Source of the DNA: Williamsia sp. | GTDB taxonomy: Bacteria; Bacteroidota; Bacteroidia; Chitinophagales; Chitinophagaceae | Reading direction: 5' to 3' | Assembly: GCA_015069695.1 (NCBI GenBank) | Contig: JADCRZ010000015.1 | Location: forward strand, 62,001-126,000 | DNA: 64,000 bases | Notes under the pieces: model-generated | Databases searched by the model: none | What the model saw: the letters and a program-made list of their open reading frames with translations, nothing else | Told to the model about the DNA's origin: nothing | Shown here: piece after piece, positions 25,804 to 53,305 of the stretch | Layout of the letters: each line of letters starts with the position of its first letter | Numbering within the stretch: position 1 is the first letter of the stretch | Program-made: the position numbers and the translations under genes

Positions 25804-28800
25804 TTAATAATTGGGCGTGTACGTATTTAGTTCAGAAACCGTTTTGTTCCATTCGGCCAGGGCATTGATGTATTCAGCCTGCAGTCCGATGGATTGGTTA
25901 ATTATGAGGGTCCATTCCAGAAAGCTGATGGCACCATTGCCAAACTGCAAGGTTGCGTTCTCGCTCAGGAGGGCAGCCTGCTTCAGCGCTGTATTCTCGA
26001 AATAAGCCAGCGTGCGGCCGTTACTGCCATAACGCAGGACGAGCTGCCTGAGCAGCGCTTGATGCCTGCTCACCGTATCGGCGTATTCTGTTTCAACAGC
26101 TGACAATTGAAGCCTGCCCGCATAGATCCTGGCGTTTGCGGCCGTGTAAAAAAGCGGAATGCTGATGCCTGCGATCACAGAGGAAAAGCGGGAAGAAGCA
26201 CCGAAATATTTATTATTCCCATTTACATTTTGAAAGCCGATCAGCGATTGGTTGTTGTATCCGATATTCACCAGGGGCAGCTTGCGGGCTTTATACAGTT
26301 GGATTTCCTGGCGTAAAATTTTTTGTTGCTGTTTTTTTGCCTGTATAACAGGATAGCTGGTTACAGCACCTGTATCGGGCAGACTGATCAGGGCCATTTT
26401 TAAGGGTACAGGTGTGGGCAGGTACCGTTCCCGGCTGTTCAGCAGGTAGGCAAACTGTGATTGCACGATGTGAAGGTCAGCCTCCAGTTGCTGCAGCTGA
26501 TCCGCTATCTGTCCTCTTTGTGCATCGGCAGCCGTTTTTTCCACAATATTGCTTTCACCTGTATTGAAGCGTTGTTCCTGCCGGAGGGCAAACGCGGCAA
26601 AGAGACTGTCTGCCTTTTGCAGCAAGCTCTTTTTCTGCAGCATCAGCAGCATCTCATAATACAGGTCAACAATTTGCTTCTTGACGTTCAGTCTGATCAC
26701 CTGCTCATTCAAAACGCCGCTGCCGGTCTGCGCTGCAAGAACAGCGTGTTGCCTTTTGTATACGACAGGGAAAGAAGAAGTTTGTGTTACAGTGAACCTG
26801 GTATCATTTGCGATGGTGTTGATTTGTCCGTACTCTGCCTGCACGATGGTAAACGGAATATCGAAAGCACTTTTTTCCAGTGTTTGCAGCGACCGCGTTT
26901 GCAGCCGGGCAGCCTGCACGGAAAGGTTCCCGCGCAAACCGGTTTGAAGGGCTTCCTCAAGTGATATCCGCCTTTCCTGCGTATAGGCAGGTTTTATGGA
27001 ACCAGCTGTTATCAGCGTGGCGAACAGGATCAACGATTTGCTTTTACTGCCCAGAAATTTGAACGCACCCTGGGTAAAGATCTTTTTTGCCAGCAGCTTG
27101 TGCAGCACCAGGTACAAAGCCGGCAGCACAACCAGGGTGAGCAGGGTGGCCGTTAACAGTCCCCCGATCACCACTGTTGCGAGCGGGCGCTGCACTTCTG
27201 CTCCGGCACCGTTACTCATGGCCATGGGCAAGAACCCCAGTGATGCTACAGCGGCCGTCATCAGAACGGGTCTCAGGCGGGTAGAAGTTCCCCGCCTTAT
27301 CCGTTCCGGTACATCGCTGACGCCATTTTTTTCCAGCTGGTTGAATTCAGAAAGAAGTACAATGCCGTTCAGCACGGCAATACCAAACAAGGCAATAAAA
27401 CCTACGCCTGCTGAAATGCTGAAGGGCATGCCTCGCAGGCTCAGGGACAGCACCCCGCCGATGGCCGATAAAGGGATAGCTGAAAATATGAGAAAACCTT
27501 CGCTAAACGAAGAAAACGCAAAATAAAGAAGCAGAAAGATCAGCAGCAGCGACACAGGAACGGCGATGCTTAACCGCTTTTTGGCTTCAATAAGATTTTC
27601 AAATTGTCCGCCATATGTGATATAATATCCTGGCGGGAGGCGGACCTGCGAAGCGATCTTTTTCTGCAGGCTATTCACCACGGTTTGTACGTCTTTGCCC
27701 CGTACGTTGAACCCCACGGTAATTCTTCGTTCTGCATTCTCCCGCTGGATCTGGTTAGGCCCTACTTTTATTGCTACGTCTGCAACCTGCTGCAAGGGGA
27801 TCTGGGCGCCTTTCGAAGTCGGGATCAATAAATTCTGAACATCGGCCAGGTTTTGCCTGTTCTGGTTGTTGAGCCTAACCACCAGGTCAAATCTTTTTTC
27901 GTTCTCGAATACCTGTCCGCTGACAGCTCCTGCAAAGGCAGCTTGCAGGGTGTTGTTGACCTCGCTGACGGAAATGCCATATTGGGAAAGTGCAGCGCGG
28001 TTGTAATTGACTTCGATCTGCGGCAGTCCGGTCTGCGCTTCCACGTACAGGTCTTTTGCGCCTGCAATGCGGCCGGCAATCGCGCCGATCCGGGAAGCAT
28101 AGCTGGCCAGCGTATCAAGGTCTTCTCCGAATATCTTGCAGATCACGTCCTGTCTTCCTCCGGTCATGAGTTCGTTAAAGCGCATCTGGACCGGGAACTC
28201 GAAACCCGTGGTGATGCCTGGTACGTCTTCCAGTGCATGGCTCATCTTCTCCGCCAGTTCCTGGAACGATCCGGCGCTTGTCCATTGTTTCTTGGGATGG
28301 AGGATCACCATCATGTCGGAGGCATCCATGGTCATGGGGTCGGTCGGGATTTCACCGCTGCCTATTTTTGTAACTACTTTTTGCACTTCAGGGAAGCGGG
28401 TCAGCAGGATATGCGCGGCCTGCCGGGTGGCTTTGATGGTTGTAGTGAGCGAGCTGCCGGTGAGCACCCGCGTATCTACAGCGAAATCACCTTCTTCCAG
28501 GGTGGGAATAAATTCACCTCCCATGTTCAGGATCACGACCAGCGCCACAGCGAATAAACCGCCAGCGGAAAGGATGACCGTTCTGGGATAAGAAAGCGCT
28601 TTGCCCAGCACCCTTAGATACCCCTTCTCCAGCCTGGCCATAATGCGGTCTGCAAAACCGGGTTTGCTGATCTTTTTTTTGCTGAGCACCAGGGAGCTCA
28701 TCATGGGCACATAGGTAAGGGAAAGCAGAAAGGCGCCCAGGATGGCAAACACAACTGTTTGCGCCATGGGCCTGAACATCTTGCCTTCGATGCCCTGCAG

Positions 28801-30204
28801 CAGCAGGATGGGCAGGTAAACGATGACGATGATGGCCTGCCCGAATACAGCTGCGTTCATGAGTTTGCTCGTGGAACTTCTTACCTCTTCATTCATCTGT
28901 TCGCCGGTGAGCCGGTCCCTGTCCTTGAAGAGGCTGTTCTGGTGCAGGTGATGCATCACTGCTTCCACGATGATCACCGCGCCATCCACGATCAATCCAA
29001 AGTCGAGCGCACCCAGGCTCATGAGGTTGCCGCTTACGCCAAACAAGTTCATCATGCTGATGGCAAACAGCATGGCGAGCGGGATGACGGATGCAACAAG
29101 GAGTCCGGCCCGGAGGTTTCCAAGAAACAGGATAAGGATAAACACCACGATCAGCGCGCCTTCCAGCAGGTTTCGTTTTACGGTGCTGATGGCATTGTTC
29201 ACCATTTTTGTTCTATCGAGAAAGGCCTCTATCTCCACACCTGCGGGCAGGGTTTTCCGGATCTCCCCGATCTTTTCCTTGACCGCTTCGATCACTTTCG
29301 AAGAGTTCTCTCCTTTGAGCATCATGACCACCGCCCCGGCCACTTCTCCCTGGTCGTTGTAACACATGGCACCGTACCGGGTAGCGGTACCGTATTGTAC
29401 ATTCCCGATGTTCCGGATAAGGACCGGCGTGCCGTCCGGAAGGGTTTTTACCACGATCCCTTCAATGTCTTCCCGCGTCTTTACCAATCCGGAGGAGCGG
29501 ATATACAGCACCACCGGACCCTTTTCTATGTAAGCACCGCCGGTGTTCTGGCTGTTTTTTTCCAAAGCCGAAAAAACATCGGAGATCGTCAGGCCGTATG
29601 ATTTAAGCTGGTCCGGGTTCACGCCGATCTCATATTGTTTGAGCTGTCCCCCGAAACTGCTCACGTCTGCAATGCCGGGTGTGCCGAGCAACTGCCGCCG
29701 CACGATCCAGTCCTGGATCGTCCTGAGTTCCATTGCTGTGTATTTGCCTTCATAGCCCTTTTGGGGCTTTAAAACATATTGAAAGATCTCTCCCAGTCCG
29801 GTGGTAACCGGTCCGAGGGAAGGTGTACCCAGTCCGGCCGGTATCTGGCTCTGTACCTGCAGGAGCCGTTCGCTCACCTGTTGGCGGGCCCAGTACACAT
29901 CGGTTCTATCGTTGAATACGATGGTGATGATAGACAGGCCGAAGCGGGAAAAGGAGCGTTGTTCGATGATGCCGGGAATGTTGCGGGTAGCGGTTTCGAT
30001 CGGAAAGGTGATCAACCTTTCGATGTCGCTGGCGCCCAGGGAGGGTGAGGATGTGATGACGAGCACCTGGTTATTGGTAATATCAGGCACGGCGTCTATG
30101 GGTAAGCGTGCGGTATTGTAGATACCCCAGGCAATCAGCGCAAGCACCATGATACCCACGATCAGTTTGTTGTAGATAGAAAAAGCAATGATCCTGTTGA
30201 GCAT
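25804..30204 (-). CDS. CzcA/CusA-family heavy-metal RND pump fused to a TolC-like outer-membrane factor
   Basis: 1466 residues, about 420 longer than a stand-alone pump. Residues 1 to about 1045 are the 12-helix HME-type RND proton antiporter, with the helix-4 motif DFGLIVDGAVIIVE (about 401-414). In the usual HME grouping this D/D/E pattern fits divalent cations (Zn, Co, Cd or Ni), while Cu/Ag pumps have an AIGAMVDAA-type helix. A second hydrophobic segment with signal-peptide character (about 1055-1072, ending PAYTQ) precedes a TolC/CusC-like efflux factor (about 1078-1466) with two long helical repeats. Such fusions are known in Bacteroidota. Presumably cleaved after export. Operon with the adaptor (10 bp) and a small upstream gene (92 bp). 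Confidence 0.93.
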   Translation of the reverse strand: MLNRIIAFSIYNKLIVGIMVLALIAWGIYNTARLPIDAVPDITNNQVLVITSSPSLGASDIERLITFPIETATRNIPGIIEQRSFSRFGLSIITIVFNDRTDVYWARQQVSERLLQVQSQIPAGLGTPSLGPVTTGLGEIFQYVLKPQKGYEGKYTAMELRTIQDWIVRRQLLGTPGIADVSSFGGQLKQYEIGVNPDQLKSYGLTISDVFSALEKNSQNTGGAYIEKGPVVLYIRSSGLVKTREDIEGIVVKTLPDGTPVLIRNIGNVQYGTATRYGAMCYNDQGEVAGAVVMMLKGENSSKVIEAVKEKIGEIRKTLPAGVEIEAFLDRTKMVNNAISTVKRNLLEGALIVVFILILFLGNLRAGLLVASVIPLAMLFAISMMNLFGVSGNLMSLGALDFGLIVDGAVIIVEAVMHHLHQNSLFKDRDRLTGEQMNEEVRSSTSKLMNAAVFGQAIIVIVYLPILLLQGIEGKMFRPMAQTVVFAILGAFLLSLTYVPMMSSLVLSKKKISKPGFADRIMARLEKGYLRVLGKALSYPRTVILSAGGLFAVALVVILNMGGEFIPTLEEGDFAVDTRVLTGSSLTTTIKATRQAAHILLTRFPEVQKVVTKIGSGEIPTDPMTMDASDMMVILHPKKQWTSAGSFQELAEKMSHALEDVPGITTGFEFPVQMRFNELMTGGRQDVICKIFGEDLDTLASYASRIGAIAGRIAGAKDLYVEAQTGLPQIEVNYNRAALSQYGISVSEVNNTLQAAFAGAVSGQVFENEKRFDLVVRLNNQNRQNLADVQNLLIPTSKGAQIPLQQVADVAIKVGPNQIQRENAERRITVGFNVRGKDVQTVVNSLQKKIASQVRLPPGYYITYGGQFENLIEAKKRLSIAVPVSLLLIFLLLYFAFSSFSEGFLIFSAIPLSAIGGVLSLSLRGMPFSISAGVGFIALFGIAVLNGIVLLSEFNQLEKNGVSDVPERIRRGTSTRLRPVLMTAAVASLGFLPMAMSNGAGAEVQRPLATVVIGGLLTATLLTLVVLPALYLVLHKLLAKKIFTQGAFKFLGSKSKSLILFATLITAGSIKPAYTQERRISLEEALQTGLRGNLSVQAARLQTRSLQTLEKSAFDIPFTIVQAEYGQINTIANDTRFTVTQTSSFPVVYKRQHAVLAAQTGSGVLNEQVIRLNVKKQIVDLYYEMLLMLQKKSLLQKADSLFAAFALRQEQRFNTGESNIVEKTAADAQRGQIADQLQQLEADLHIVQSQFAYLLNSRERYLPTPVPLKMALISLPDTGAVTSYPVIQAKKQQQKILRQEIQLYKARKLPLVNIGYNNQSLIGFQNVNGNNKYFGASSRFSSVIAGISIPLFYTAANARIYAGRLQLSAVETEYADTVSRHQALLRQLVLRYGSNGRTLAYFENTALKQAALLSENATLQFGNGAISFLEWTLIINQSIGLQAEYINALAEWNKTVSELNTYTPNY

Positions 30205-39952: not shown

Positions 39953-40430
39953 AGATTGTGTGTTTGTACAATGAGTTGGTGATAAGTTCGATAAAAAAAC
40001 CGTTCCGTGGATAGAAGAACTACTGTATGTTGGATGCCTTCCACGGAGGTATCAGCCTGGCCAGCTCTATATTCTCTGTATACGCATGTTCAAAGCGCCG
40101 GCTCCGGTCGTTTTGCCGCAATGAAATAATATCCTGAAAATGAAAAAATTAATACTCGATTAAGAGAAATTTAATCCCGGTATTAATGCCCCAAAGCTAT
40201 TTTCGACCTTTCTTTTCCATTCACCATTCTTAAATACACTGATTGCTTGATAACTCCCCGCGGCAGTTTTGGAACGACTTGTCCAACCGTGAAACTGACA
40301 TGCTATGCTACCAGAAAAAAACGGGCGCTGCTTTCGTCCCCCTTAAGCGCCGCAAACCTCCATCCTGAAAATCTTTCAGTGGATCCTGCAACACAACTTC
40401 TACGATGATCTTGCAAAAACCTATTTACAC
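39953..40430. promoter_or_regulatory. Divergent control region between decarboxylase-like gene and susC
   Basis: 478 bp without a gene. Contains a nested dyad (40148-40187, listed separately). A promoter-like pair for susC is ATTG (TTG at 40243-40245), 18 nt, then CAGTTTTG (40264-40271), one mismatch from TAnnTTTG. It would give a leader of about 150 nt. A short GGCGCT / AGCGCC hairpin lies in that leader (about 40322-40350). Confidence 0.45.
40148..40187. repeat. Nested dyad, candidate operator upstream of susC
   Basis: Two perfect inverted repeats inside each other: outer ATTAATAC / GTATTAAT and inner GATTAA / TTAATC, the inner pair 7 nt apart. Read another way, two tandem TTAAT-N5/6-ATTAA palindromes. 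It lies about 90 bp before the predicted susC transcription start, an activator-like distance. Confidence 0.5.
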
Positions 40431-43400
40431 ATGAACAAAGTAATTTACTTTCTTTTATTGACCTTCTTATTTCCGGTTTGTCTTTCGGCGCAATCCACCC
40501 AGGTGCACGGGGTACTAAAAGATTCTGCTTCCGGAAACCCCCTCAGCGGTGTTTCAGTTGAACTGAGGAGCGCAAAGGGAAAAATTGCCGGAACAACCAC
40601 CAATACAAAAGGGGAGTACAATCTTCCCTCAACCGGAGCTGCTGCTACCATCGTTTTTTCTTATACAGGCATGGGAACCGTTGAAGAGAATATCAGCGGC
40701 CGCCAAGAGATCAATGCATTCCTGGCTCCCAGTTCGGCAAGCCTGGGAGATGTGGTGGTGGTAGGCTATACCTCCCAGAAAAAAGAAACGCTCACCGGTG
40801 CAGTTTCAGCCATCAAAGGATCTGACATGGTCCGGACCCGGAACGAGAACGTGCTCAACATGCTGACGGGCAAATTACCGGGCGTGCGTGTGGTGCAGAA
40901 AAGTTCCCGGCCAGGTGCTTACGACGCAACGATCGACATCCGTGGGATGGGTGCAGGGAACCCGCCGGTTCCACCGCTGTTTGTAATTGATGGGGTCGTT
41001 CGCGACAAAGATTATTTTGCCCGGATGAGCGCGGAAGAAATTGAAAGCCTCTCTGTTTTAAAAGACGGATCTGCTGCAGTATATGGCCTGCGTGCGGCGA
41101 ACGGCGTTATACTGGTTACAACCAAAACGGGCAAATCCCAAAACGGCAAGGTAGACATCACGTTCAACTCCGGCTTTTCCATGCAGCAATATCTATATGT
41201 TCCGCAAGGAGTAGATGCGATAGATTACATGACCCTGAGAAATGAACAGAACTGGCAGGATTTTGCAGGGAATTACCTGGTTCGCCGGAATCCTGCATTT
41301 ACAGATGCACAATTAAAGCCCTACCAGGATGGAACAAAAAAGTCATACAACTGGATGGACCAGGTCTTCAGGAAATCTACCCCTCAGTACGACAACAACT
41401 TGAGTGTTGATGGCGGTACAGATAAACTGCGTTACTACTTCAACCTGGGTTATACAAAGCAGGAAGGTTCTTATAAAAGCGGCGACCTGAAATCAGAACG
41501 CTGGGCCCTGCGCAGCAATGTGGATGCCCAGATCTCAAAAAGGCTGAAAGCAAGGATCCAGATCGGCGCGCTGCTGACGAATACACAAGAGCCGAACGGT
41601 TCAGGCTGGACAACCTATAAGGCCACCTGGCTGATGCGCCCGGACGCTCCTTATTATGCCAACGACAATCCGGCTTACCCCAATGGAGACAATCTTGTTC
41701 AGTATGACGGCAACAATATGATCGTACAAACAAATGCCGATTATGTCGGCTTAAACCAGAACAGGGATAAAAGGTACAATGGAACCCTGCGGCTGGAGTA
41801 TGAAATCCCCGGCATCAAGGGGCTGTCGGCAAGAGGGTTGTATGATTATACCATGAACCTTCCTGATTACAACAATTACAGGCATGCCTATAACGTGTAC
41901 AGGTACAATCCCAATGACAATACCTACACGGCGATCCCGAAGAACACACCTTCACTGATAGAAAAAGGAACCAGCCTGAACTACGACAGAACCATGCAGG
42001 CCGGATTGTACTACACAAATCAATTCAACAGGCACAGTGTGAACAGCTTTCTTCTTTATGAGGGAACCTATATCCAACGGGATGGTTTCCTTGCCTCCCG
42101 TGAACTGCTGATTGAATCTGAATACCTGTTTGCAGGCGAAGAGAACCGCCAGCGGGGCGTGGGGTCAACACCGTACGACCGCGCAAGCAAGTCATTGGTA
42201 GGCTCGGTAACGTATGACTTTGACAGAAAATACCTGCTGGACTTCAAGTTCCGTTATGATGGATCTTCCCGGTTCCCTGCAGGCAGCCGCTATGGTTTCT
42301 TCCCGGCGGTATCGGCCGGCTGGCGTTTGAGCGAAGAAGGATTTATCAAACACAATACGGATTTTATTTCAGAGCTGAAACTGAGGGCCTCTTATGGAGA
42401 ACTGGGTGATGACGGTTCAGCTGGCAACTATCCTCCAAGAATAGGGTATAACCTTGCCGGAAACAGCCTGGGCTGGTTCTTTGGTGATGTGCTGAATGGT
42501 GGGGTGGCTGCTTCAAGCATTCCCAATCCCAACCTGACCTGGTATAAGATCAAATCTTACAATGCCGGACTGGATTTTGGCTTCCTGAAAAATAAGATCA
42601 CCGGTAGTGTTGAATTGTTCAGAAGAGATCGCAGCGGGTTGCTGGCAACCAGCTCTGCCGTGATCCCGGGAACAGTCGGCGCTAACCTGCCCCAGGAAAA
42701 TCTCAACGGCGACCGCAATTTCGGGTATGAAGCATCGGTGACCTACCGCAACCGGAGCAGGAACTTTTCTTATTATGCAAGCGGTCAGATTTCAGCTACC
42801 AAATACATGCGCACAAACTGGCTGGAAACGCCCGCCAGCAACTCCTATGACAAATGGAGAAACAGGACGGCAAACCGCTACCAGAACATCTGGTGGGGAA
42901 ATGAGTCGGGCGGCATGTTTAATTCATTGCAGCAGATACGCACTTTCAACCTTCCCACAGGACAGGGTGCCCTGCCCGGCGACTGGTATTTGAAGGATTG
43001 GAATGGGGATGGTGTGATTGATGGCAACGACGATCATCCGATCGCAACGATGGGCCTTCCTGTGTTCAACTATGGCATTTCATTGGGCGGTTCGTGGAGA
43101 AATTTTGATGCAGCAGTGGATTTGCAGGGCACCCAGGGTGTGTATGTACAATATTCTGAAGTACTCGTAGAAGCGCTGGCTTTTGGCGGACAAAATACCC
43201 TGTCATGGTTCACAGACCGCTGGCGCCCCGCAGATCCGAATGCGGATTACTTTAGCCCGAATACAAAATGGATATCTGGTTATTACCCGGTAACGGGTCA
43301 CGATGGTCGCAGAACTGGTACGAACGGGGTCATGAACGCATCTTATATCAGGCTGAAAACTGCTGAGCTGGGCTATACGTTCCGGTCTCCGCTGCTCACA

Positions 43401-43583
43401 AAAGCCGGCATTAAAGATTTCAGGTTGTTCCTGAGCGGATACAATCTGCTGACGCTTACCCCACTCAAAAATGTGGATCCTGAGCGGCCGGGTTCTGCTG
43501 GCGGCGCTTCCACAAACTCGATCGATTTCTACAATGACCCGATCACCAAAACATACACAATCGGCGCGAAACTAAAATTCTAA
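40431..43583 (+). CDS. SusC/RagA-family TonB-dependent outer-membrane receptor
   Basis: 1050 residues. Signal peptide MNKVIYFLLLTFLFPVCLSAQ, a CarboxypepD-regulatory-like domain (VHGVLKDSASGNPLSGVSVELRS, about 25-98), the SusC plug signature GDVVVVGYTSQKKETLTGAVSAI (about 104-126) and the rest of the plug (MLTGKLPGVRVVQKSSRPGAYDATIDIRGMG), then a 22-strand barrel to the C-terminal strand. Together with the SusD gene 20 bp downstream it imports oligosaccharides with energy from TonB. No N-terminal STN domain, so no direct sigma/anti-sigma signalling is expected, consistent with the distinct regulator at the end of the locus. Confidence 0.97.
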   Translation: MNKVIYFLLLTFLFPVCLSAQSTQVHGVLKDSASGNPLSGVSVELRSAKGKIAGTTTNTKGEYNLPSTGAAATIVFSYTGMGTVEENISGRQEINAFLAPSSASLGDVVVVGYTSQKKETLTGAVSAIKGSDMVRTRNENVLNMLTGKLPGVRVVQKSSRPGAYDATIDIRGMGAGNPPVPPLFVIDGVVRDKDYFARMSAEEIESLSVLKDGSAAVYGLRAANGVILVTTKTGKSQNGKVDITFNSGFSMQQYLYVPQGVDAIDYMTLRNEQNWQDFAGNYLVRRNPAFTDAQLKPYQDGTKKSYNWMDQVFRKSTPQYDNNLSVDGGTDKLRYYFNLGYTKQEGSYKSGDLKSERWALRSNVDAQISKRLKARIQIGALLTNTQEPNGSGWTTYKATWLMRPDAPYYANDNPAYPNGDNLVQYDGNNMIVQTNADYVGLNQNRDKRYNGTLRLEYEIPGIKGLSARGLYDYTMNLPDYNNYRHAYNVYRYNPNDNTYTAIPKNTPSLIEKGTSLNYDRTMQAGLYYTNQFNRHSVNSFLLYEGTYIQRDGFLASRELLIESEYLFAGEENRQRGVGSTPYDRASKSLVGSVTYDFDRKYLLDFKFRYDGSSRFPAGSRYGFFPAVSAGWRLSEEGFIKHNTDFISELKLRASYGELGDDGSAGNYPPRIGYNLAGNSLGWFFGDVLNGGVAASSIPNPNLTWYKIKSYNAGLDFGFLKNKITGSVELFRRDRSGLLATSSAVIPGTVGANLPQENLNGDRNFGYEASVTYRNRSRNFSYYASGQISATKYMRTNWLETPASNSYDKWRNRTANRYQNIWWGNESGGMFNSLQQIRTFNLPTGQGALPGDWYLKDWNGDGVIDGNDDHPIATMGLPVFNYGISLGGSWRNFDAAVDLQGTQGVYVQYSEVLVEALAFGGQNTLSWFTDRWRPADPNADYFSPNTKWISGYYPVTGHDGRRTGTNGVMNASYIRLKTAELGYTFRSPLLTKAGIKDFRLFLSGYNLLTLTPLKNVDPERPGSAGGASTNSIDFYNDPITKTYTIGAKLKF

Positions 43584-43603: not shown

Positions 43604-45550
43604 ATGATGAATAAGTCATTCTTACTTTATACCGTGCTTTTGGCCATGATCTTTTCCGCTTGTCAAAAGCTGGACCTGGAGCCCAAGGGCATCCTGGGAG
43701 AACCCGAACTTTTTGGGAACGAGTTTGGCGTAAAAAAATATTTTACCGGCCTTTATAATTACCTGCCCATTGAGGACTTCAACTATTACGGGAACAACAA
43801 CCCCAGCGGCGGCAACGCTTTCCGCCCCACCAACTATTGGGAAGCAGGTAAAAACAGCCAGGGGAACATGAGCGGTGAGTTCTTCAATACCTGGCAAACA
43901 CCCAACAACGGCGGCTTTGGCTACTGGCCCTATGACCGCATCCGCGAGGTCAACCTTTTTATTCAGAATTTCCCCAACTACAAAAGCAAGTATGCAGACA
44001 ACGTGTTCAATGCTTTGCTGGGAGAAGGCCGTTTCCTGCGCGCCTTCTTTTATTTCGGACTGGCCAAGCGGTATGGCGGCGTTCCCATTGTAAAAGAAGT
44101 GCAGGATCCGCTTGCAAACAAAGAGACGCTGGCTGTTCCCCGGAATACGGAGTATGATACCTGGAAGTTTATTTATGACGACCTGAAATTTGCGATGGAC
44201 AATCTGCCGGCAACGAGTGAAAGAGGACGTGTGAATAAATTTGTAGCTGCTGCACTCCAGTCGCGTGCCATGCTTTATGCCGGTTCAATCGCGAAGTATA
44301 CCCAATATCTCGGTTTTCAGTCGGAAGCTGCTACCAAGGCCGGTTTGGCAGGAATCGATCCGGCCAAGGCAAACGAGTTTTTTCAATATGCTGTAGATGC
44401 AGGTAAACTGATCGAAGGCGGTCCTTATGTGTTGTATACAAAGGACTATCCCGATAAGGCTTTGAATTTTGCCAACCTGTTTTTAGACATCGCATCGCCT
44501 GAAAACATCTTTATCAAAGATTTTGACCAGACCGTTCCAAACGATACACGGCTGCGGCACAGCTATGATGCCCTGATGTGCCCGCAGCCGGATATGTCTT
44601 CGTTTGTAGGTGCTGAAAGTTATCCTCCCTTTGATTTTATGGAGTTGTATGACATGACGCCGTATACAAATCCAAACGGAACACCGGTTCGTTTTGCCAA
44701 CAGAAGCGATATCAAGAATGGCATGGAGCCACGCATGCGGGGTACCATGTTTTTTGACGGCGATGTTCTAAGGGGCAAAGCATTCAGTATCCAAAAGGGT
44801 ATCTATCTCACTTATACTGGTTCTGCCGCAGATGCCCAGGCGGGCAGCAATGCAGCGCCTATCAACAGCAACGGCAACCGCGTTTTAGGGGGAAGAGGCA
44901 AGACGATTACGCTGGGAGGTGTTACCCTGAATGTAACAGGAGCGCATGGCAATTTTGATGATGCGGGCGGAGAAAACAATGGTTGGGGGGCTGCCTTTGT
45001 GCGAAAGTATGTGAACACGAATATGGCCACAAGTGATGTAAGGGAATACCGCAGCGGTCAGCATTGGATCGTATTCCGCCTGGGTGAGATATTTTTGAAT
45101 ACAGCCGAAGCTCTTTATGAACTGGGCAAAAGATCGGAGGCGTTCGATTATGTCGAAAAGATCCGTGTCCGTGCAGGTGCAAAGGTGGCAAGGCCGACGG
45201 TTGATCAGTCACTTACGAACATCGGAACGATCAACAAGGCAAATTATCCCTATCAGCTTGAAAAGTCGCTGCAATTTATCCGCGACGAACGGGCGCGTGA
45301 GCTGTACGGAGAAAACCAATGGTGGTGGGACCTTCGCAGATGGAGAACGGCAGACCAGGTATTGAACCAGTTCCGTCCCCGGGTGCTGAGTTGTTATTAT
45401 GTTGCCAATGAAGAAAGATATATCTACCTGGATGAAATAAACAGGCTTAACAGAACATGGACTGCATCCAAGCAGTGTTATTACGAACCCATTCCTGCAG
45501 GCGAAATCGGAAAGAACAACAAGCTTTTGCCGAACAACCCTCTCTACTAA
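43604..45550 (+). CDS. SusD/RagB-family starch-binding-type lipoprotein
   Basis: 648 residues, on the long side for SusD. Signal peptide with lipobox FSAC followed by QKLDLEPKG. The N-terminal TPR-like helices carry NYLPIEDFN, GEGRFLRAFFYFGLAKRYGGVPIV (a classic SusD segment) and FVAAALQSRAMLYAGSIAKY. The C-terminal RagB part ends in RDERARELYGENQWWWDLRRW, then YYEPIPAGEIGKNNKLLPNNPLY. It caps the SusC barrel outside the cell and binds glycan. Start ATG ATG at 43604/43607; followed after 6 bp by the DUF3823 gene. Confidence 0.96.
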   Translation: MMNKSFLLYTVLLAMIFSACQKLDLEPKGILGEPELFGNEFGVKKYFTGLYNYLPIEDFNYYGNNNPSGGNAFRPTNYWEAGKNSQGNMSGEFFNTWQTPNNGGFGYWPYDRIREVNLFIQNFPNYKSKYADNVFNALLGEGRFLRAFFYFGLAKRYGGVPIVKEVQDPLANKETLAVPRNTEYDTWKFIYDDLKFAMDNLPATSERGRVNKFVAAALQSRAMLYAGSIAKYTQYLGFQSEAATKAGLAGIDPAKANEFFQYAVDAGKLIEGGPYVLYTKDYPDKALNFANLFLDIASPENIFIKDFDQTVPNDTRLRHSYDALMCPQPDMSSFVGAESYPPFDFMELYDMTPYTNPNGTPVRFANRSDIKNGMEPRMRGTMFFDGDVLRGKAFSIQKGIYLTYTGSAADAQAGSNAAPINSNGNRVLGGRGKTITLGGVTLNVTGAHGNFDDAGGENNGWGAAFVRKYVNTNMATSDVREYRSGQHWIVFRLGEIFLNTAEALYELGKRSEAFDYVEKIRVRAGAKVARPTVDQSLTNIGTINKANYPYQLEKSLQFIRDERARELYGENQWWWDLRRWRTADQVLNQFRPRVLSCYYVANEERYIYLDEINRLNRTWTASKQCYYEPIPAGEIGKNNKLLPNNPLY

Positions 45551-45556
45551 TCAACA

Positions 45557-46300
45557 ATGGATAAAAATATGAAGAAGATAACTTATCTGATCTTAGGGAT
45601 GGCGCTCCTGGGGCTTTCATCCTGTTACAAAAAAGACAACTGGGCAGAACCTGATGCCCAGGTTTCCGGAAACATCCTTGATTCGTACACCGGCAAGCCC
45701 CTGTTAACATCACAGGCAGATTGGTCGATCCGTATCTGGGAGAGATCCTGGACCCAGTCTGTTCCTGTTAACCAGAACATCCCGGTGAAACAGGATGGAT
45801 CTTTCAACAACACCAGGTTGTTTGCAGGAACCTATGATATGCTTCCATATGGTGGCCCTTTCTGGCCGGCGGATACAGTCAAGAATGTAGTGCTGGGCGA
45901 AAGAGGAAAAACCCCCAGGGATTTTACCGTAACTCCTTACCTGCAGCTGGTTGAGTTTGAAACGCAGTTACAAGGCCTGAACCTGACTTTGAAGATCCGC
46001 CTGAAAGCGCCAAAAAGGGTGGGACTTCCCAATATCGTAGAAATCAAGCCCTATCTGAGTTTGAATGCATTTGTCGGCGAATCCAACTACATCAACATCG
46101 CTGAGTACAACAACAGAAGGATCCAGATCAACAAACCCTGGTTAACAGAAGTGGGAGATGTTGAAACAAGCCCTGTTTACACAATCGGACCCCTGCCTGT
46201 AAAAGCTGGATATACCTACAATGTACGCGTGGGTGCGAACGTGAACGATGCCAACAGAAAATACAATTATTCAGAGATCAAACAGGTTGTAGTCCCATAG
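45557..46300 (+). CDS. DUF3823 lipoprotein of the PUL
   Basis: 247 residues. Lipobox SSC (LGLSSCYKKDNW) gives a surface or periplasmic lipoprotein. Two beta-sandwich domains: the first from AQVSGNILDSYTGKPLLTSQADWSIRIWERSW, the second from PYLQLVEFETQLQGLNLTLKIRLKAP, as in DUF3823 proteins that regularly follow SusD. Thought to be an accessory glycan-binding or assembly factor; experimental data for the family are thin. Only 6 bp from susD, so co-translated. A long mRNA hairpin follows (46320-46374). Confidence 0.9.
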   Translation: MDKNMKKITYLILGMALLGLSSCYKKDNWAEPDAQVSGNILDSYTGKPLLTSQADWSIRIWERSWTQSVPVNQNIPVKQDGSFNNTRLFAGTYDMLPYGGPFWPADTVKNVVLGERGKTPRDFTVTPYLQLVEFETQLQGLNLTLKIRLKAPKRVGLPNIVEIKPYLSLNAFVGESNYINIAEYNNRRIQINKPWLTEVGDVETSPVYTIGPLPVKAGYTYNVRVGANVNDANRKYNYSEIKQVVVP

Positions 46301-46439: not shown

Positions 46440-47474
46440 ATGAAAAGCGTGTTGAGACTTTACAGACCGGACATGATTTTGCTTGCAGGAGTGATCGGGT
46501 TGATTGGGGTATCCTGCAAGGTGCAGAAGGTAGCTGAGAAGCCTCCGGTAGTGATCGCGGAAAATCCTATTATCACAAATATGTATACGGCAGATCCCTC
46601 CGCGCATGTGTGGAAAGACGGGCGGCTCTATGTTTACGCATCACACGACATAGCACCGCCGCGCGGATGCGATCTGATGGATCAATACCATGTTTTTTCA
46701 ACCAGTGATATGGTGAACTGGACAGATCATGGTGAAATATTGCGGGCAAGCCAGGTCACCTGGTGCAAACCACTTGCGAAGGATGCCAAATTCATGTGGG
46801 CGCCCGACTGCGCATACAAGAATGGCAAATATTATTTTTACTTTCCGCATCCAAGCCAGGACCCCTGGAACGGAAACTGGAAGATCGGCATCGCTGTCAG
46901 CGACAAGCCCGCATCCGGTTTTGTTGTGCTGGATCATTGGTTGAAAGGCCTGCCCGACAAGGGTGAAATCGATCCCTGTGTTTTTGTAGACGATAACGGG
47001 CAAGCCTACTTCTACTATGGCGGTGGCGGCAAAAGTTACGGCGCCAAACTCAAAGACAACATGATTGAGCTGGATGGTGAACTTCAGCCAATGACAGGGT
47101 TGGAAGATTTTCATGAAGCAACCTGGGTGCATAAGAAAGACGGTGTTTATTATCTTTCTTACTCCGATAATCACGATGAGAAAAGAGACAAGGAAGGCGT
47201 GAAAGGAAACAACAGAATGCGTTATGCGACCAGCAAGAGTCCGCTGGGACCCTGGAAAGCCCAGGGGATATACATGGATCCAACCGACAGCTATACCAAC
47301 CACGGATCGATTGTAAAATTCAAGGGACAATGGTACTCATTTTATCACAGCAGTGAGCTTTCCAAAAAAAGGGGAGAACACAACGACTGGTTGCGTTCAG
47401 TGGCTGTTGATAAACTGTATTACAATGCGGATGGTACCATTCAAAAAGTTGTTCAGACAGGGATCCGTAAATAA
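46440..47474 (+). CDS. Glycoside hydrolase family 43 enzyme (secreted)
   Basis: 344 residues. Signal peptide with a lipobox-like VSC (residues about 25-27). The five-bladed GH43 propeller holds the three acid residues: TADPSAHVWKDG (base Asp about 50), GEIDPCVFV (pKa-tuning Asp about 178) and FHEATWVHKK (acid Glu about 225). FMWAPDCAYKNGKYYFYFP and TNHGSIVKFKGQWYSFYH are typical blade segments. Known GH43 activities include arabinofuranosidase, xylosidase and exo-galactanase; the subfamily cannot be decided by eye. Codon context: 22 bp before the beta-helix enzyme, same operon. Confidence 0.94.
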   Translation: MKSVLRLYRPDMILLAGVIGLIGVSCKVQKVAEKPPVVIAENPIITNMYTADPSAHVWKDGRLYVYASHDIAPPRGCDLMDQYHVFSTSDMVNWTDHGEILRASQVTWCKPLAKDAKFMWAPDCAYKNGKYYFYFPHPSQDPWNGNWKIGIAVSDKPASGFVVLDHWLKGLPDKGEIDPCVFVDDNGQAYFYYGGGGKSYGAKLKDNMIELDGELQPMTGLEDFHEATWVHKKDGVYYLSYSDNHDEKRDKEGVKGNNRMRYATSKSPLGPWKAQGIYMDPTDSYTNHGSIVKFKGQWYSFYHSSELSKKRGEHNDWLRSVAVDKLYYNADGTIQKVVQTGIRK

Positions 47475-47496: not shown

Positions 47497-50340
47497 ATGA
47501 GCAGGATAAATCTTAGTATGAGAAAAGCAAGTTTCGGCGTAGGCAGAATGGCCGTGGTTGCCATTGTAGCCATGTTTATTGCAGGCAAGATAGACGCGCA
47601 GGCATTCCAAAACAGTCTAAAAACTGTTTATCCCACAAAGGACTGGGTTGTATCTGATTTTGTGGTGACCGATCAGAAGTTTGGCGCGAAAGCCACGCCA
47701 GGTTTTGACAACAGAGGGGCTTTTCAGGCTGCTATTGATGCCGCTTATAAAAATGGGGGCGGGGTCGTGTATGTTCCGGCCGGCAATTATGAATTCCGCA
47801 GTACGCAAACGGCTACCAGGAACGTGAGGGTGCGGCAGGCAGAGAACGAAACAATGAAAGAATTTACGTATCAGTATGTGCTGAATCTCCCGTCGAGTGT
47901 GCAGCTGCGCGGCGACTGGGCAGATCCTGCTTTAAACGGAGGAAAGGTTCTCGGAACAATTCTGGAAGTGCGCGTGGGCAAAGACGCGCCCAATTACAAC
48001 GGCGCTGTTGAAAGTTGGTGGAACGATGCACAAGCCGGCAACGCGCTCCGCACAACCTACACCAGCATTGCGGACAGGTTTATAGATATGAATTCAGGTA
48101 CCGGCGTAACGAACCTGTCAATCTGGTATCCCGAACAGGACATCAACGACGTAAAACCGTATCCATGGACCCTTTTCCAGCCAAACGGCGACTGTGTGAC
48201 GATTGAAAATGTCACGCTTGTAAACGCCTACAACGGCTTTTATTCTGCTCCCAGCGAACTTCATTATGTTTTGAACAGCTACATGACAGCCCTGCATACA
48301 GGGATCGAAGTGCATGTATGCACCGACATCGGGCGCATCGAACATGTCAAAATAGACCCGGCATACTGGGCAAATTCAGGGCTCCCGGGTTCACCCTCCC
48401 TGGCAAAAGTGGCTGCGTACACGAAAGCAAACGGTACCGGATTCAACATGCACCGTTCAGATTGGGAATACGTGTCCGGTTTGTACGTATCTGATTATAA
48501 AACAGGTATGTGGGTCGGGAGAGAACCCGGTTACTTTGATACCCCCAATGCGCAGTTTTACGAAATTCATATCAAAGATTGCGACACCGGCATGTATGTA
48601 CAGGCGGTGAATCCATATGGCCTGCTTATTTCCAACTCTACATTCGGGGCGCAAAAAAACGGGAAGGCCGTGTATTTCTACAACGATTTTAAAACCTCTG
48701 TCCAGTTCAACGGGGTGGATTTCACCGGGCCGGTCGTGAGTGATGGCAGCGATGGCGTTATCTCCTTTGAAAGCTGTTTGTTTAGCAACTACAATGAATA
48801 TGCGCTGAAGATAAACAATGGCAATGTACTGCTCACCCAGAGCCAGTTTAAAAAACCGGCCGGTCATGTAGTACTGGGTCCGGACGTCAATACGCTTAAA
48901 TCGGTGAACTCCGGTTATAATGGAAAATTGGAAATCGAAAACAGAAGCAAATCTGCCAAAGTCGAGATCAATAATGGCAAGCAGTATTTGTTTGATCCCA
49001 TCCCAAAAAATGTGGTGACTGACATCAAAGTACATCCAAAACCGGCTTCCAGCAGAATGATGAAGGTTGACCTGCCGAGGGCGACAGGCTTTGACAACGA
49101 ACAACCGAAAGAAGATGTATCGGCTCCCTTGCAAAAAGCGCTTGACGAGCTGAAAAGGGCCGGGGGCGGTACCTTGTATCTGCCGGGTGGAAGATATCTG
49201 GTGAACAATCCCATCAAAGTTCCTTCAGGCGTTGAATTGCGGGGAACATGGGACGTACAGCACCATACGCAGAGTGGGGGAGTGGGGATCTTTACAACGT
49301 ATGCCGGCGGTACAGCCGGAGAAGGAGGCCCTTCCCTGATACAGCTGGCGGAAGGTGCGGGCATCAGCGGATTGACCATTGCGCAGTTGAATATAGCAAC
49401 GGATGGTAACACGGCGGAGAACCCCAGAAAGACCCCGTTCCTGATACAGGGGCAAGGTCCGAACGTTTATATTGTTAACCTCACGATCGGGGGCGGCGAT
49501 AAAGGAATAGACCTCGCTTCCTACAACACCAGCGGGCATTATGTTGATTATTTTGCCGGCGTACTCGCCAGGGCCGGCATTTGGGTTGGCGGAGGTGCGA
49601 AAGGGGGATTTATCCGGAACATGCAGCTTAATCCGCATTACGGATCAAGGCTTCCGCAAGGCGGACAAGGATACCCAAGAGTCGCTTTGACCCGTTTCGT
49701 GCAATCAAATTGCAGTGCGCTGAAATTTGCCGATGTTAAAAACCAGACGATCTTCAACAATTTCGTTTACGGGTCTTTCTACGGCATTCATTTCCTGAAG
49801 GATGCTATCACCGGTAAGAATTCCGGAGAGATGACGGTAATTGGCCACGGTTCAGACGGATGCTCCTATTCCCTGTTTGTAGAAGACGCCGACAAAAACA
49901 CCAAATTAATTGCAATCAACTCCGAACTGGTGAACACGCGCACTGCAGAGCCTGTCAGGTCATATGTTTTGATGGGCGGCGAAGCGAATACCACCAAAGT
50001 GCACCCTGATGCGCAGCTGATCCTCTATAACAGTGCATTTTGGGGCAGTCCAACCATCGGTGCGATCATCAATAACGGAACCGTGCGTTTTCAACAGGCA
50101 AACTTCCAGCGCTCCGGTGCACCCGGCATCGACAACAGGGGCGGAAAGGCGCATGCGTACTCTTCTTATTTCGCCCAAAAAATGCCCGGCGAGGCCACGG
50201 GCGACAACGTGTATGCAAAGCTGCACGCAGCCAGCGTCTCCACAGAGCTGACCAACAACTATTATATCTCCGGGTTCAGGGAAAACAATGAGAAACCGGG
50301 CAAGATATACGGATCTGATATGCTTGTTAATAAGAAGTAG
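47497..50340 (+). CDS. Tandem right-handed beta-helix enzyme (GH28/pectate-lyase-3-like, possibly GH55-like)
   Basis: 947 residues. Signal peptide (hydrophobic RMAVVAIVAMFIAGKIDAQA). Two homologous beta-helix domains, each opening with the Pectate_lyase_3 motif: RGAFQAAIDAAYKNGGGVVYVPAGNY (about 70-95) and APLQKALDELKRAGGGTLYLPGGRY (about 545-570), each followed by an 'LPSSVQLRGDW / VPSGVELRGTW' turn. Two-helix layouts with this motif are known in GH55 exo-beta-1,3-glucanases, but this protein is longer and I cannot confirm catalytic residues. Polygalacturonase-like DD pairs are not obvious. An alternative start is ATG 47518. Likely acts on a plant or microbial glycan taken up by SusCD. Confidence 0.85.
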   Translation: MSRINLSMRKASFGVGRMAVVAIVAMFIAGKIDAQAFQNSLKTVYPTKDWVVSDFVVTDQKFGAKATPGFDNRGAFQAAIDAAYKNGGGVVYVPAGNYEFRSTQTATRNVRVRQAENETMKEFTYQYVLNLPSSVQLRGDWADPALNGGKVLGTILEVRVGKDAPNYNGAVESWWNDAQAGNALRTTYTSIADRFIDMNSGTGVTNLSIWYPEQDINDVKPYPWTLFQPNGDCVTIENVTLVNAYNGFYSAPSELHYVLNSYMTALHTGIEVHVCTDIGRIEHVKIDPAYWANSGLPGSPSLAKVAAYTKANGTGFNMHRSDWEYVSGLYVSDYKTGMWVGREPGYFDTPNAQFYEIHIKDCDTGMYVQAVNPYGLLISNSTFGAQKNGKAVYFYNDFKTSVQFNGVDFTGPVVSDGSDGVISFESCLFSNYNEYALKINNGNVLLTQSQFKKPAGHVVLGPDVNTLKSVNSGYNGKLEIENRSKSAKVEINNGKQYLFDPIPKNVVTDIKVHPKPASSRMMKVDLPRATGFDNEQPKEDVSAPLQKALDELKRAGGGTLYLPGGRYLVNNPIKVPSGVELRGTWDVQHHTQSGGVGIFTTYAGGTAGEGGPSLIQLAEGAGISGLTIAQLNIATDGNTAENPRKTPFLIQGQGPNVYIVNLTIGGGDKGIDLASYNTSGHYVDYFAGVLARAGIWVGGGAKGGFIRNMQLNPHYGSRLPQGGQGYPRVALTRFVQSNCSALKFADVKNQTIFNNFVYGSFYGIHFLKDAITGKNSGEMTVIGHGSDGCSYSLFVEDADKNTKLIAINSELVNTRTAEPVRSYVLMGGEANTTKVHPDAQLILYNSAFWGSPTIGAIINNGTVRFQQANFQRSGAPGIDNRGGKAHAYSSYFAQKMPGEATGDNVYAKLHAASVSTELTNNYYISGFRENNEKPGKIYGSDMLVNKK

Positions 50341-50447: not shown

Positions 50448-50468
50448 TATCACACCAGTATCACACCA
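50448..50468 (+). repeat. Direct heptamer repeat, candidate SARP operator
   Basis: TCACACC-AGTA-TCACACC inside a 10-bp perfect tandem repeat (TATCACACCA) with 11-bp periodicity, so both copies face the same side of the helix. About 180 bp before the predicted promoter of the regulator. Confidence 0.5.
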
Positions 50469-50671: not shown

Positions 50672-53305
50672 ATGCGATATCAGTTGTGTGCCATATTTTT
50701 CTTTCTTTTATCGTACCACCTAACTTTTTCACAATCATATGGTTTGGCCTTTAACAGCCATGAGGCCGTTTCTGAAAAGCGGACTGCCCTGGAGCTGACG
50801 CCGGAAGATTCCCTGTATTTTACCGGTGATCCGCGCTTTGATTTTGAGATCAATTTCATCCCTTCCTACAAGATCTATTTCGGGTATGTGCTGCGCATTG
50901 CATGTAAAAACGGGAACATCGATCTTATTTACGACCAGGGGAATTCTGTATTCAGGGTGATCACCGGCCAGCAGTTTTCCGGTATATCTTTTTCCATCCA
51001 CCAGGATAAACTGTTTCATGAATGGAGCAGGGTCAGCTTGCAGATAAAACCCGGAAAGCAAACGCTTGAAGTTTCGCTTGATGGCAGGCGGCAAGGTGTT
51101 GCCAAACTCCCTTTTCCGGTCAGCGATCAATATTACAAAGTATGGTGGGGCGCCAACGACGATCCGCATTACCAGACCCGCGACATACCGCCCATGCGCA
51201 TCCGCGAGATCAGTCTGTACAATGGAAACGCCCTTCAGCATCATTGGTCCCTGAACGAGATGGCTGGCAACAGTACCCTCGACGATGTGCATCAGAACAA
51301 AGCGACGGTTAAAAACCCGGTATGGGTAAGACCCAAACACCAGAACTGGCGGTTGATCAGTTCGTACGTTATAAAAGGGAATGCTGTTACTGCGTACGAC
51401 CCCAAAGAAGAGCGTGTGTTCGTGACCGGTTCTGACTCCGTGTTTGTGTACAACACCCAAAATAACCAGCATCCCTGGACAAAGCTGTCCGTTGAACGCG
51501 AGAACATCATGCCGGGTATCCAGGGTGTATATGATACGCTGGCAGGTAACCTGTACGATATTTTTATCCGCCAAAAAACAGTGGCAACTTACCAGGTTGG
51601 CCAGGCGCACTGGACGGCACCGGTTGATCCGGTTTTGACGGAATACTGGCACGCCAACAAATTTATCTCACCCCTTGATACCTCCCTGTACATTGTCGGC
51701 GGGTATGGCCAGCTAAAGTACAAGAACACCGTACAGCGGTATCATTTTTCCACGCGCGAATGGCAAATCCTGGCGCCCGGAGGAGACCGGTTGACGCCCC
51801 GCTATCTGTCTGCCCTTGGCCTCAACGAACGGGGCGACACTGCCTATGTCATGGGCGGCTATGGCAGCGGTACGGGCGACCAGATGCTCAACCCCGGCAT
51901 CTACTCCGACCTCTTTGCCTATTCAATTAAATCCGCAACCTTTAAAAAGCTGTTCAATCTCAACGCCCACACATTTCCCTATACGTTTGCCAACAGCCTG
52001 GTGATTGATTCAAAAAACCAGCGGTATTACGGACTGATCTTTCCGAACAACACGTTCCATTCAAAGCTGCAACTGATCCGGGGTTCGCTGAAAGATCCCT
52101 CTTTTCAGCTGCTGGGCGATGCCATTCCTTATTTGTTCTATGACGTGCAGTCGTACGCTGATCTTTACTATGCGCCCAAGGCCGGCAAGCTGATTGCCGT
52201 AACCTTGTTTTACTCCGATCCGGATTCCTGGAAAGGAAGCACAACTGTGAATGTTTATTCACTTGATTTTCCGCCTGCCCTCCTTGAACCGGTGAGCAAA
52301 GGAGAGGTTCCGGACAAGCGAAGGTGGCCGTTCCTGGTGGGAGCACTGGCAGCAGGATTGTTGCTGGCAACTGTCGTGCTCCTGGTAAGGCGCCGTAAGC
52401 ACCGGCAGGTGGATGCCTTGCCATCTTCTGTACATGGTATGGGAAGGCAGGCGGTTATGCCTGTGCCCCCCTCAGAAACAGGCATGCCGGAACAGATAGC
52501 CCCTGAGATAGACAGCCGGCAGGTTTCCCTGGACGTACAGACAGGGGAAGAAGAACTTCCCTTGCAATCCCGGATCCTGTTGTTCAATCAGTTTAAAGTC
52601 CTGGATCAGGAAGGAAATGATCTGACGGTTTTGTTCACGCCGCTTATCAAAGAGATGTTCCTGCTCATACTCATTTATACATTCCGCAACAAGCAGGGTA
52701 TTACATCCAACGAATTAAACGAGATCTTATGGAATGGAAAATCCGTGAAAGACGCCAAGAACAACCGGTCGGTGAATATGACCAAGCTGAAGAACATCCT
52801 TGAAAAAGTAGGCAATTGCGCCATTGTAAAAAAGGATAATTTCTGGCGGTTCGAGACGGCAGGTGATCGCATGTATGTTGATTACGAAAGACTGGTTGCG
52901 CTGTTCCTAAAAAAGCGGCCCATAGACATGCCTTATATGGAGGAATTGCTTGCGCTCACCGGGAAAGGCTCCTTCCTGCTCCAGACCGCGTACGACTGGC
53001 TGGATGACATCAAATCGGAGATCTCTGATGCCGTGATCAATGTGTGCCTCGATTATCTCCGGCACCATCCCACCGCTCACGATGAATTCAATATTGAGAT
53101 TGCCAACTGCATCTTCCGCTTCGACGCCCTCAATGAAGATGCCCTTAAGATCAAGTGCAGAAGTTTCATCCACCAGGGACGTTATGCCTCTGCCAACAGC
53201 ACATACGCAAAATTTATTCGCGAGTACCGCGAAATTTACGGAGAGGAATATAGCAAATCCTTCAACGAGTTCATCAAGGATACATCCGGATACTCTTCCC
53301 AATAA
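50672..53305 (+). CDS. Membrane-spanning one-component regulator: LamG-like, Kelch-like, TM, SARP-type DNA-binding domain
   Basis: 877 residues from ATG 50672, which begins the signal peptide MRYQLCAIFFFLLSYHLTFSQ; longer frames from TTG 50576 or ATG 50636 add an unnatural leader. Outside part: a concanavalin-like/LamG domain (about 20-215; FDFEINFIPSYKIYFGYVLRI, HEWSRVSLQIKPGKQTLEVSLDG) and Kelch/galactose-oxidase-type blades (LYIVGGYGQLKYKNTVQRYHF, AYVMGGYGSG). One membrane helix at about 552-572. Inside: a SARP/AfsR-like winged helix (about 634-735; ITSNELNEILWNGKSVKDAKNNRSVNMTKLKNILEK) and a C-terminal helical repeat like BTAD/TPR (to 877). No kinase, receiver or sigma domain. Last gene of the PUL, so the likely glycan sensor. 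The layout follows HTCS logic in a single chain. Confidence 0.88.
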   Translation: MRYQLCAIFFFLLSYHLTFSQSYGLAFNSHEAVSEKRTALELTPEDSLYFTGDPRFDFEINFIPSYKIYFGYVLRIACKNGNIDLIYDQGNSVFRVITGQQFSGISFSIHQDKLFHEWSRVSLQIKPGKQTLEVSLDGRRQGVAKLPFPVSDQYYKVWWGANDDPHYQTRDIPPMRIREISLYNGNALQHHWSLNEMAGNSTLDDVHQNKATVKNPVWVRPKHQNWRLISSYVIKGNAVTAYDPKEERVFVTGSDSVFVYNTQNNQHPWTKLSVERENIMPGIQGVYDTLAGNLYDIFIRQKTVATYQVGQAHWTAPVDPVLTEYWHANKFISPLDTSLYIVGGYGQLKYKNTVQRYHFSTREWQILAPGGDRLTPRYLSALGLNERGDTAYVMGGYGSGTGDQMLNPGIYSDLFAYSIKSATFKKLFNLNAHTFPYTFANSLVIDSKNQRYYGLIFPNNTFHSKLQLIRGSLKDPSFQLLGDAIPYLFYDVQSYADLYYAPKAGKLIAVTLFYSDPDSWKGSTTVNVYSLDFPPALLEPVSKGEVPDKRRWPFLVGALAAGLLLATVVLLVRRRKHRQVDALPSSVHGMGRQAVMPVPPSETGMPEQIAPEIDSRQVSLDVQTGEEELPLQSRILLFNQFKVLDQEGNDLTVLFTPLIKEMFLLILIYTFRNKQGITSNELNEILWNGKSVKDAKNNRSVNMTKLKNILEKVGNCAIVKKDNFWRFETAGDRMYVDYERLVALFLKKRPIDMPYMEELLALTGKGSFLLQTAYDWLDDIKSEISDAVINVCLDYLRHHPTAHDEFNIEIANCIFRFDALNEDALKIKCRSFIHQGRYASANSTYAKFIREYREIYGEEYSKSFNEFIKDTSGYSSQ

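Follow-up and report, generated by a model that had tools for sequence, protein, structure and literature searches.

A predicted transmembrane regulator with a C-terminal SARP-type effector and a candidate operator at a SusCD locus of a Chitinophagaceae-type bacterium

The closest described regulators

Bacteroidetes-specific regulation of polysaccharide utilization loci (PULs) is of three named types, SusR-like, hybrid two-component system (HTCS) and ECF sigma/anti-sigma, and SusR is described as membrane-bound, with its sensor in the periplasm and its DNA-binding domain in the cytoplasm (PMC3878776). In the window (the whole stretch of 64,000 nucleotides that was analysed), a SusCD locus is followed by a gene (50672..53305; + strand, as for all features below unless stated) encoding an 877-aa protein, referred to here as the sensor-regulator. 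It resembles SusR, a regulator of a SusCD locus, in being a predicted membrane protein with a periplasmic sensor and a C-terminal cytosolic DNA-binding domain, encoded at a SusCD locus, and resembles HTCS in its large periplasmic sensor, its DNA-binding end in the same chain and its PUL linkage. Assignment to the HTCS was rejected, since the sensor-regulator gave no Pfam match to histidine kinase (HisKA/HATPase), receiver or AraC models at E up to 0.1. The first-pass annotation had proposed that extracellular glycan binding may act directly on the internal DNA-binding domain, without phosphorylation; neither a kinase nor a receiver domain is present. For comparison with SusR, a SusR-like DUF6377 protein (L135:8120-9724, - strand), chosen by gene context alone and encoded divergently from a sus-type locus, was used in place of BT3705; Pfam's DUF6377 may correspond to the C-terminal half of SusR. 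This stand-in has no LamG or Kelch domain, and its DUF6377-type C-terminal domain was not matched by the effector of the sensor-regulator (hhalign probability 2.4%), so a SusR-like assignment was also rejected.

Transmembrane transcription regulators such as CadC and ToxR are common, and the main text of the survey describing them contains no mention of SARP, BTAD (bacterial transcriptional activator domain) or Kelch (PMC10269533). Like the sensor-regulator, CadC and ToxR combine a periplasmic sensor and an OmpR-type winged helix in one single-pass chain without a kinase. Their DNA-binding domain is N-terminal and they are not known to carry a BTAD, whereas the chain of the sensor-regulator begins with a signal peptide and has its DNA-binding domain at the C-terminus.

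The AfsR/SARP family (Streptomyces; EmbR of M. tuberculosis) has the same order and fold of winged helix and BTAD over ∼240 residues, and uses direct repeats on a one-turn pitch right upstream of the core promoter, an arrangement that the candidate arrays described below resemble. Effectors of this type are otherwise known from regulators of antibiotic production. In the SARPs described in PMC10936776, extra domains are C-terminal (NOD and TPR in AfsR) and none of the proteins is described as membrane-bound, whereas here the effector ends a transmembrane (TM) sensor. No SARP, BTAD or Kelch regulator of Bacteroidota was found in the open-access literature. For this layout, to which the first-pass annotation could assign no named class, no report was found of a SARP effector ending a membrane-spanning sensor; a phosphorylation-free mode of action across the membrane is known from SusR and CadC/ToxR. 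What is new is the position of the SARP effector, which closes a LamG-Kelch-TM chain at its C-terminus.

Domain architecture, locus and gene family

The source genome is a 7.66-Mb Chitinophagaceae-type assembly, and its homologue-bearing relatives are Chitinophaga, Puia and Flavitalea. The sensor-regulator gene, delimited with the ORF list, a family alignment of 44 homologues and AlphaFold2 models, lies 3' of five genes on the same strand, encoding (i) a SusC homologue (40431..43583; TIGR04056, 2.3e-224), (ii) a SusD homologue (43604..45550; SusD_RagB, 3.3e-38), (iii) a DUF3823 protein (45557..46300), (iv) a GH43 enzyme (46440..47474; 2e-43), and (v) a double pectate-lyase/rhamnogalacturonase-like enzyme with no substrate assigned (47497..50340; PF12708, 2e-17). 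It is preceded by a gap of 331 bp, which suggests that it has a promoter of its own. The frame runs from the ATG at 50672 to the stop at 53305; it is already open from 50576, with a second possible in-frame start at ATG 50636. A single paralogue (C2:96747-99368, 42% identity) is present in the genome, which encodes exactly two proteins with this type of effector domain.

The domain order is signal peptide, LamG-like domain, Kelch propeller, TM helix, winged helix and BTAD. The signal peptide (residues ∼1-20; 50672..50731) was read directly from the hydrophobic N-terminus MRYQLCAIFFFLLSYHLTFSQ; an N-terminal hydropathy threshold was passed by 29 of the 44 family members, the window protein lying below it. 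Separate AlphaFold2 models were built for the ectodomain and the cytosolic part. The ectodomain model (residues 20-548; pLDDT 88.8, pTM 0.80) begins with an all-beta domain (residues ∼20-222; 50729..51337). Its profile matched the nine LamG domains of the same genome (hhalign, P = 3.2e-5 over 143 columns), compared with P 0.15 and 0.78 for control profiles of the propeller and the cytosolic part, respectively. Pfam Laminin_G_3 matched four of 43 family members (best 1.4e-5), the window protein itself not being matched by the LamG model. By model, profile comparison and these HMM matches, the domain is LamG-like (concanavalin-type). Residues ∼223-538 (51338..52285) form a Kelch beta-propeller: Kelch Pfam models matched all members (43/43), and the best solved-structure matches were Kelch propellers (Z about 23, VIA-align). 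Such a modelled ectodomain would be compatible with glycan binding.

A single TM helix (residues 554-572; 52331..52387) was located from the hydropathy of the 44 members. It is found in 40 of them and is directly followed by RRRKHR in the window protein; a net positive flank just after the helix occurs in 39/44, and the C-terminus is therefore predicted to be cytosolic by the positive-inside pattern. A poorly conserved linker of ∼60 residues follows the helix in the family alignment.

The cytosolic part (residues 628-877) was modelled with high scores (pLDDT 93, pTM 0.87) as an OmpR/SARP-type winged helix (residues ∼632-731; 52565..52864) followed by a BTAD (residues ∼734-873; 52871..53290), the succession that defines the SARP fold. 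Foldseek ranks 1-6 were all AfsR and EmbR, members of the SARP family, which aligned to the effector over 235-238 residues (VIA-align, Z 13.6-15.1) at only 11-15% identity; they were the sole matches above Z 8, the next structure reaching only Z 7.8. AfsR and EmbR were recovered by fold search only: when the cytosolic profile was compared by sequence with the library of solved structures, the best hits were unrelated proteins (E 0.085). The window protein is below the Pfam cut-offs for Trans_reg_C and BTAD, and none of the HMM libraries searched shows a SARP in it; seven and three of 41 members match BTAD and Trans_reg_C, respectively, weakly, while profile-linked relatives of the effector match Pfam BTAD significantly. 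The long helix of the winged helix (residues 692-713, helix 65-86 of the cytosolic model; 52745..52810), with near-invariant N, N, N, K and L, is probably the recognition helix, judging from the OmpR fold. The first-pass annotation had called the 877-residue layout, including the SARP-type effector, by eye; its coordinates were right, and the structure models, fold searches, Pfam matches and hydropathy bear out each domain. With a TM helix and a DNA-binding domain in one chain and no kinase, the protein is, by its predicted topology, a transmembrane one-component regulator.

Full-length homologues at 35-51% identity are common, so the layout is not due to chance; it defines a conserved family. 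The effector domain was found at E ≤ 1e-30 in 42 of 396 Chitinophagaceae genomes, nearly always in a frame of ∼850 residues. It is rarer in the phylum as a whole, where 19/395 Bacteroidota genomes match the effector profile at 1e-6; the weaker matches among these are conventional BTAD proteins that also carry TPR, ATPase or receiver domains, and through them the effector is linked to the BTAD superfamily. In one locus (L105:7902-10456) an ectodomain (485 aa) and an effector (364 aa) are encoded in adjacent frames a few bases apart, representing either a split sensor or a frameshift.

Of the 46 Chitinophagaceae-type loci, 39 encode SusC in the fetched stretch, 33 of them at a distance of no more than 5 kb; SusC is also found in 22/26 loci of a hold-out set defined below. 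At least 55 SusD proteins are encoded in the source genome, so that, by our own very rough estimate, a SusD would be expected by chance in 15-25% of random 20-kb stretches. The remaining seven loci have no SusC in the fetched stretch and several lie on short contigs; three of those without SusC (L047-L049) adjoin GH92, GH3 or GH99-like genes. Recurrent neighbours of the sensor genes encode GH92, GH99-like/WbsX, GH3, GH43, SusD-like and GDSL proteins, and with such varied CAZymes the glycan served probably differs from member to member. Relatives in full-length, split or tandem form occur in nine loci from genomes with one or no SusD match, where the neighbours encode, e.g., prolyl-tRNA synthetase or subtilase. 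The relatives in SusD-less families neither adjoin susC nor lie in recognised sugar loci, which indicates that this domain layout predates, or extends beyond, its use in PULs. The earlier designation as a PUL regulator thus fits the Chitinophagaceae-type members but not the whole family. Loci L109 and L110 (at ∼8.8-13.4 kb), from SusD-less genomes, carry a tandem pair of sensor genes, one of them shortened (683 aa).

TTAA arrays at sensor-linked promoters

SARP operators are built of direct repeats with a spacing of 11 or 22 bp, the 3' repeat lying 8 bp from the -10 element (PMC10936776), and we therefore searched for one-turn repeats beside the sensor genes. A broad scan for period-11 repeats of any kind across all intergenic DNA gave no excess; an excess became visible once the gaps adjoining the sensor were separated out. 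Exact 7-mers at pitch 11 numbered 17 in 34.6 kb of sensor-adjacent gaps versus five in 75.8 kb of other gaps, and the core recurring in these repeats was TTAA. The spacing of TTAA pairs showed sharp peaks at 11-12 and 23-24 bp, only in sensor-adjacent and susC-upstream gaps. Strict TTAA triples with a pitch of 11 or 12 bp were present in such gaps of 25 of 55 loci (shuffle mean 0.35), compared with 2/55 for the remaining gaps of the same loci; at other pitches they occurred in 0-2 loci, except for the overlapping 12/13 window (13 loci). Among all 256 tetramers, TTAA ranked first for triples at this pitch. The half-site consensus is RTTAAYCCY, oriented towards the gene. Because the motif had been found on these first loci, new loci were counted under the unchanged rule: 28 were collected and two duplicates of the first set were removed, leaving a hold-out set of 26 with <85% identity to the first set. 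TTAA triples at 11/12 were found in 12 of the 26 (shuffle mean 0.05), with 0-2 loci at other pitches and eight at the overlapping 12/13. About half of the sensor loci have no strict triple array.

The candidate operator of the window, TTAAtactcgaTTAAgagaaatTTAAtcccggtaTTAA (40149..40186), consists of four TTAA half-sites with a pitch of 11, 11 and 12 bp and is located upstream of susC, the presumed first gene of the target operon. In shuffled sequences the window expectation was 0.01 for an array of three half-sites and 0.00 for one of four. A perfect 10-bp direct repeat, TATCACACCA (50448-50468; pitch 11 bp), 204 bp upstream of the sensor ATG at 50672, looked operator-like and was rejected, as it has no TTAA core and no counterpart was seen in relatives. 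Several Chitinophagaceae loci show, in intergenic DNA, a strong excess of direct repeats with periods of 14, 21, 28 and 35 bp; these are heptamer tandem arrays, located mostly away from the sensor gene.

The Bacteroidota -7 consensus is TAnnTTTG. A -7-like promoter element, TATTTTCG (40198..40205), begins 11 bp after the last half-site of the window array. Across 33 non-redundant promoters facing a non-sensor gene, with a terminal TTAG accepted as a half-site, the TTG of this element followed the last half-site at a distance of 15-17 bp in 20, whereas no other single offset from 0 to 47 had it in more than three; in the hold-out loci this spacing was seen only if the terminal TTAG was accepted. 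In the source genome, TTCG stands at this offset from the arrays of both sensor-linked susC promoters, the promoter of the paralogue having TTATTTCG at the position that corresponds to TATTTTCG. A mismatch-tolerant -33/-7 promoter scan of the window gave matches at chance level. If the repeat unit is read as TTAAYCC, the distance to the -7 element is 8 bp, as for the -10 element in SARP operators. The arrays in this linked DNA and their -7 spacing resemble the published SARP geometry, with a pitch of 11 or 12 rather than 11 or 22 bp (PMC10936776); the half-site TTAAYCC, the 11/12 pitch and the low effector identity set the system apart from the known SARPs.

The triple array occurs eight times in the 7.66-Mb genome: once in the window PUL, three times in the PUL region of the paralogue and four times elsewhere (reversed-pattern control, four matches). 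The location of four of the eight inside the two sensor PULs has a binomial P of about 5e-8 for 40 kb. One of the other arrays (C168:76137-76174, also L137:8138-8175) has four TTAA half-sites with a pitch of 11, 12 and 11 bp and AATCTTTG 11 bp downstream, i.e. a perfect promoter geometry, far from both sensors and between an AraC-like gene and a pair of genes encoding 448 and 1038 aa. Sensor-less genomes also contain recurrent conserved TTAA arrays of 11,11 pitch with a -7 element at the same offset, as in those genomes of genus g10 in which this search found no sensor (e.g. G863, G988, G180, G009 and G937), where ATATTTG occupies the -7 position; the g10 array probably serves a different OmpR-type regulator. 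The half-site thus occurs beyond the sensor-regulator and, given the C168 array and the sensor-less genomes, it is probably shared with other OmpR-type regulators. Genome-wide, an array with a -7 element is enriched in sensor genomes, with 100 matches in 42 of them versus 28 reversed-pattern controls, and 73 versus 52 in the first 72 sensor-less genomes listed; differences in genome size and other, unrelated proteins using the motif blur these counts. In 12 other sensor genomes background dominated the triple pattern where the DNA is AT-rich, the pattern being informative only together with its location.

Proposed mechanism and alternative readings

We consider it likely that the sensor-regulator is a one-component activator that spans the membrane and controls its own PUL, with a tethered SARP-type effector acting on RTTAAYCCY arrays. 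The LamG-like and Kelch domains would be periplasmic, their probable ligand being a product of the polysaccharide on which the adjacent SusC/SusD system acts, with a glycan as the presumptive signal. The signal would pass through the single TM helix and the ∼60-residue linker to the membrane-tethered winged helix and BTAD. Dimers may then bind side by side on half-sites with a pitch of 11-12 bp, immediately 5' of the PUL promoter's -7 element (in the window, at 40149-40205 before susC), and could recruit RNA polymerase as AfsR does. That the sensor-regulator itself binds the arrays is suggested by the near-invariance of both the probable recognition helix and the half-site core, and activation by its homology to SARPs. 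The candidate operator before susC considerably strengthens the regulatory claim.

The arrays could instead be sites of another OmpR-type response regulator acting on the same PULs, the sensor acting otherwise or elsewhere. OmpR-type regulators likewise read direct repeats spaced about one helical turn apart, and both the sensor-less genomes and the perfect array beside the AraC-like gene at C168:76137 fit this reading. We regard it as quite unlikely, since the arrays cluster in sensor-adjacent gaps in more than one family of the phylum and in SusD-less genomes as well (L106, L107), and in the source genome they lie in both sensor PULs and hardly elsewhere; moreover, the non-sensor arrays seen are often 11,11, whereas sensor arrays mostly include a 12. 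If the sensor does bind the arrays, it might act as a repressor: the half-sites extend over the -33 position and directly adjoin the -7 element, so that polymerase would be blocked until ligand frees the site. SARP/BTAD proteins are activators, however, and AfsR sits on this very region while recruiting polymerase (PMC10936776), which leaves repression little probability.

Glycan sensing has a competitor in the recognition of a protein partner or of the envelope state (e.g. a surface lipoprotein or the occupancy of SusC/SusD). Protein binding is frequent among Kelch propellers, and the solved structures that best match this one are protein-binding Kelch domains; furthermore, SusC-like porins are what the ECF/anti-sigma systems of PULs sense (PMC3878776), and the ectodomain is kept in SusD-less relatives. 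However, LamG/concanavalin-type folds are common glycan binders and the family is linked to varied CAZymes (GH92, GH99-like, GH3, GH43) with no single partner gene, so that we judge protein sensing unlikely. It is also conceivable that regulated proteolysis releases the cytosolic part as a soluble SARP, the usual state of these proteins, at the poorly conserved linker after the TM helix, which a protease could reach. This seems improbable to us, as no protease gene was recognised among the annotated recurrent neighbour clusters and tethered transcription factors such as CadC function without release.

As a tethered activator of its own PUL, the sensor-regulator would add a fourth, phosphorylation-free route to PUL regulation, with a predicted operator through which target operons and inducers become testable in any Chitinophagaceae genome that carries the gene. 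A wider proposal seems somewhat likely, namely that membrane-tethered SARPs, with an effector taken over from antibiotic regulators, serve across the Bacteroidota as direct sensor-to-promoter switches for polysaccharide loci, with a readable operator code (RTTAAYCCY every 11-12 bp and a -7 element at a fixed distance). If true, regulons would be predictable from sequence. A natural one-chain switch from signal to promoter would also be offered for synthetic use.

Elsewhere in the window, a 1466-aa chain (25807-30204, - strand) was found that combines an AcrB-type RND pump with an outer membrane efflux protein (PF00873 and PF02321) as a single fusion. It is adjoined by an HlyD-type gene and a two-component pair.
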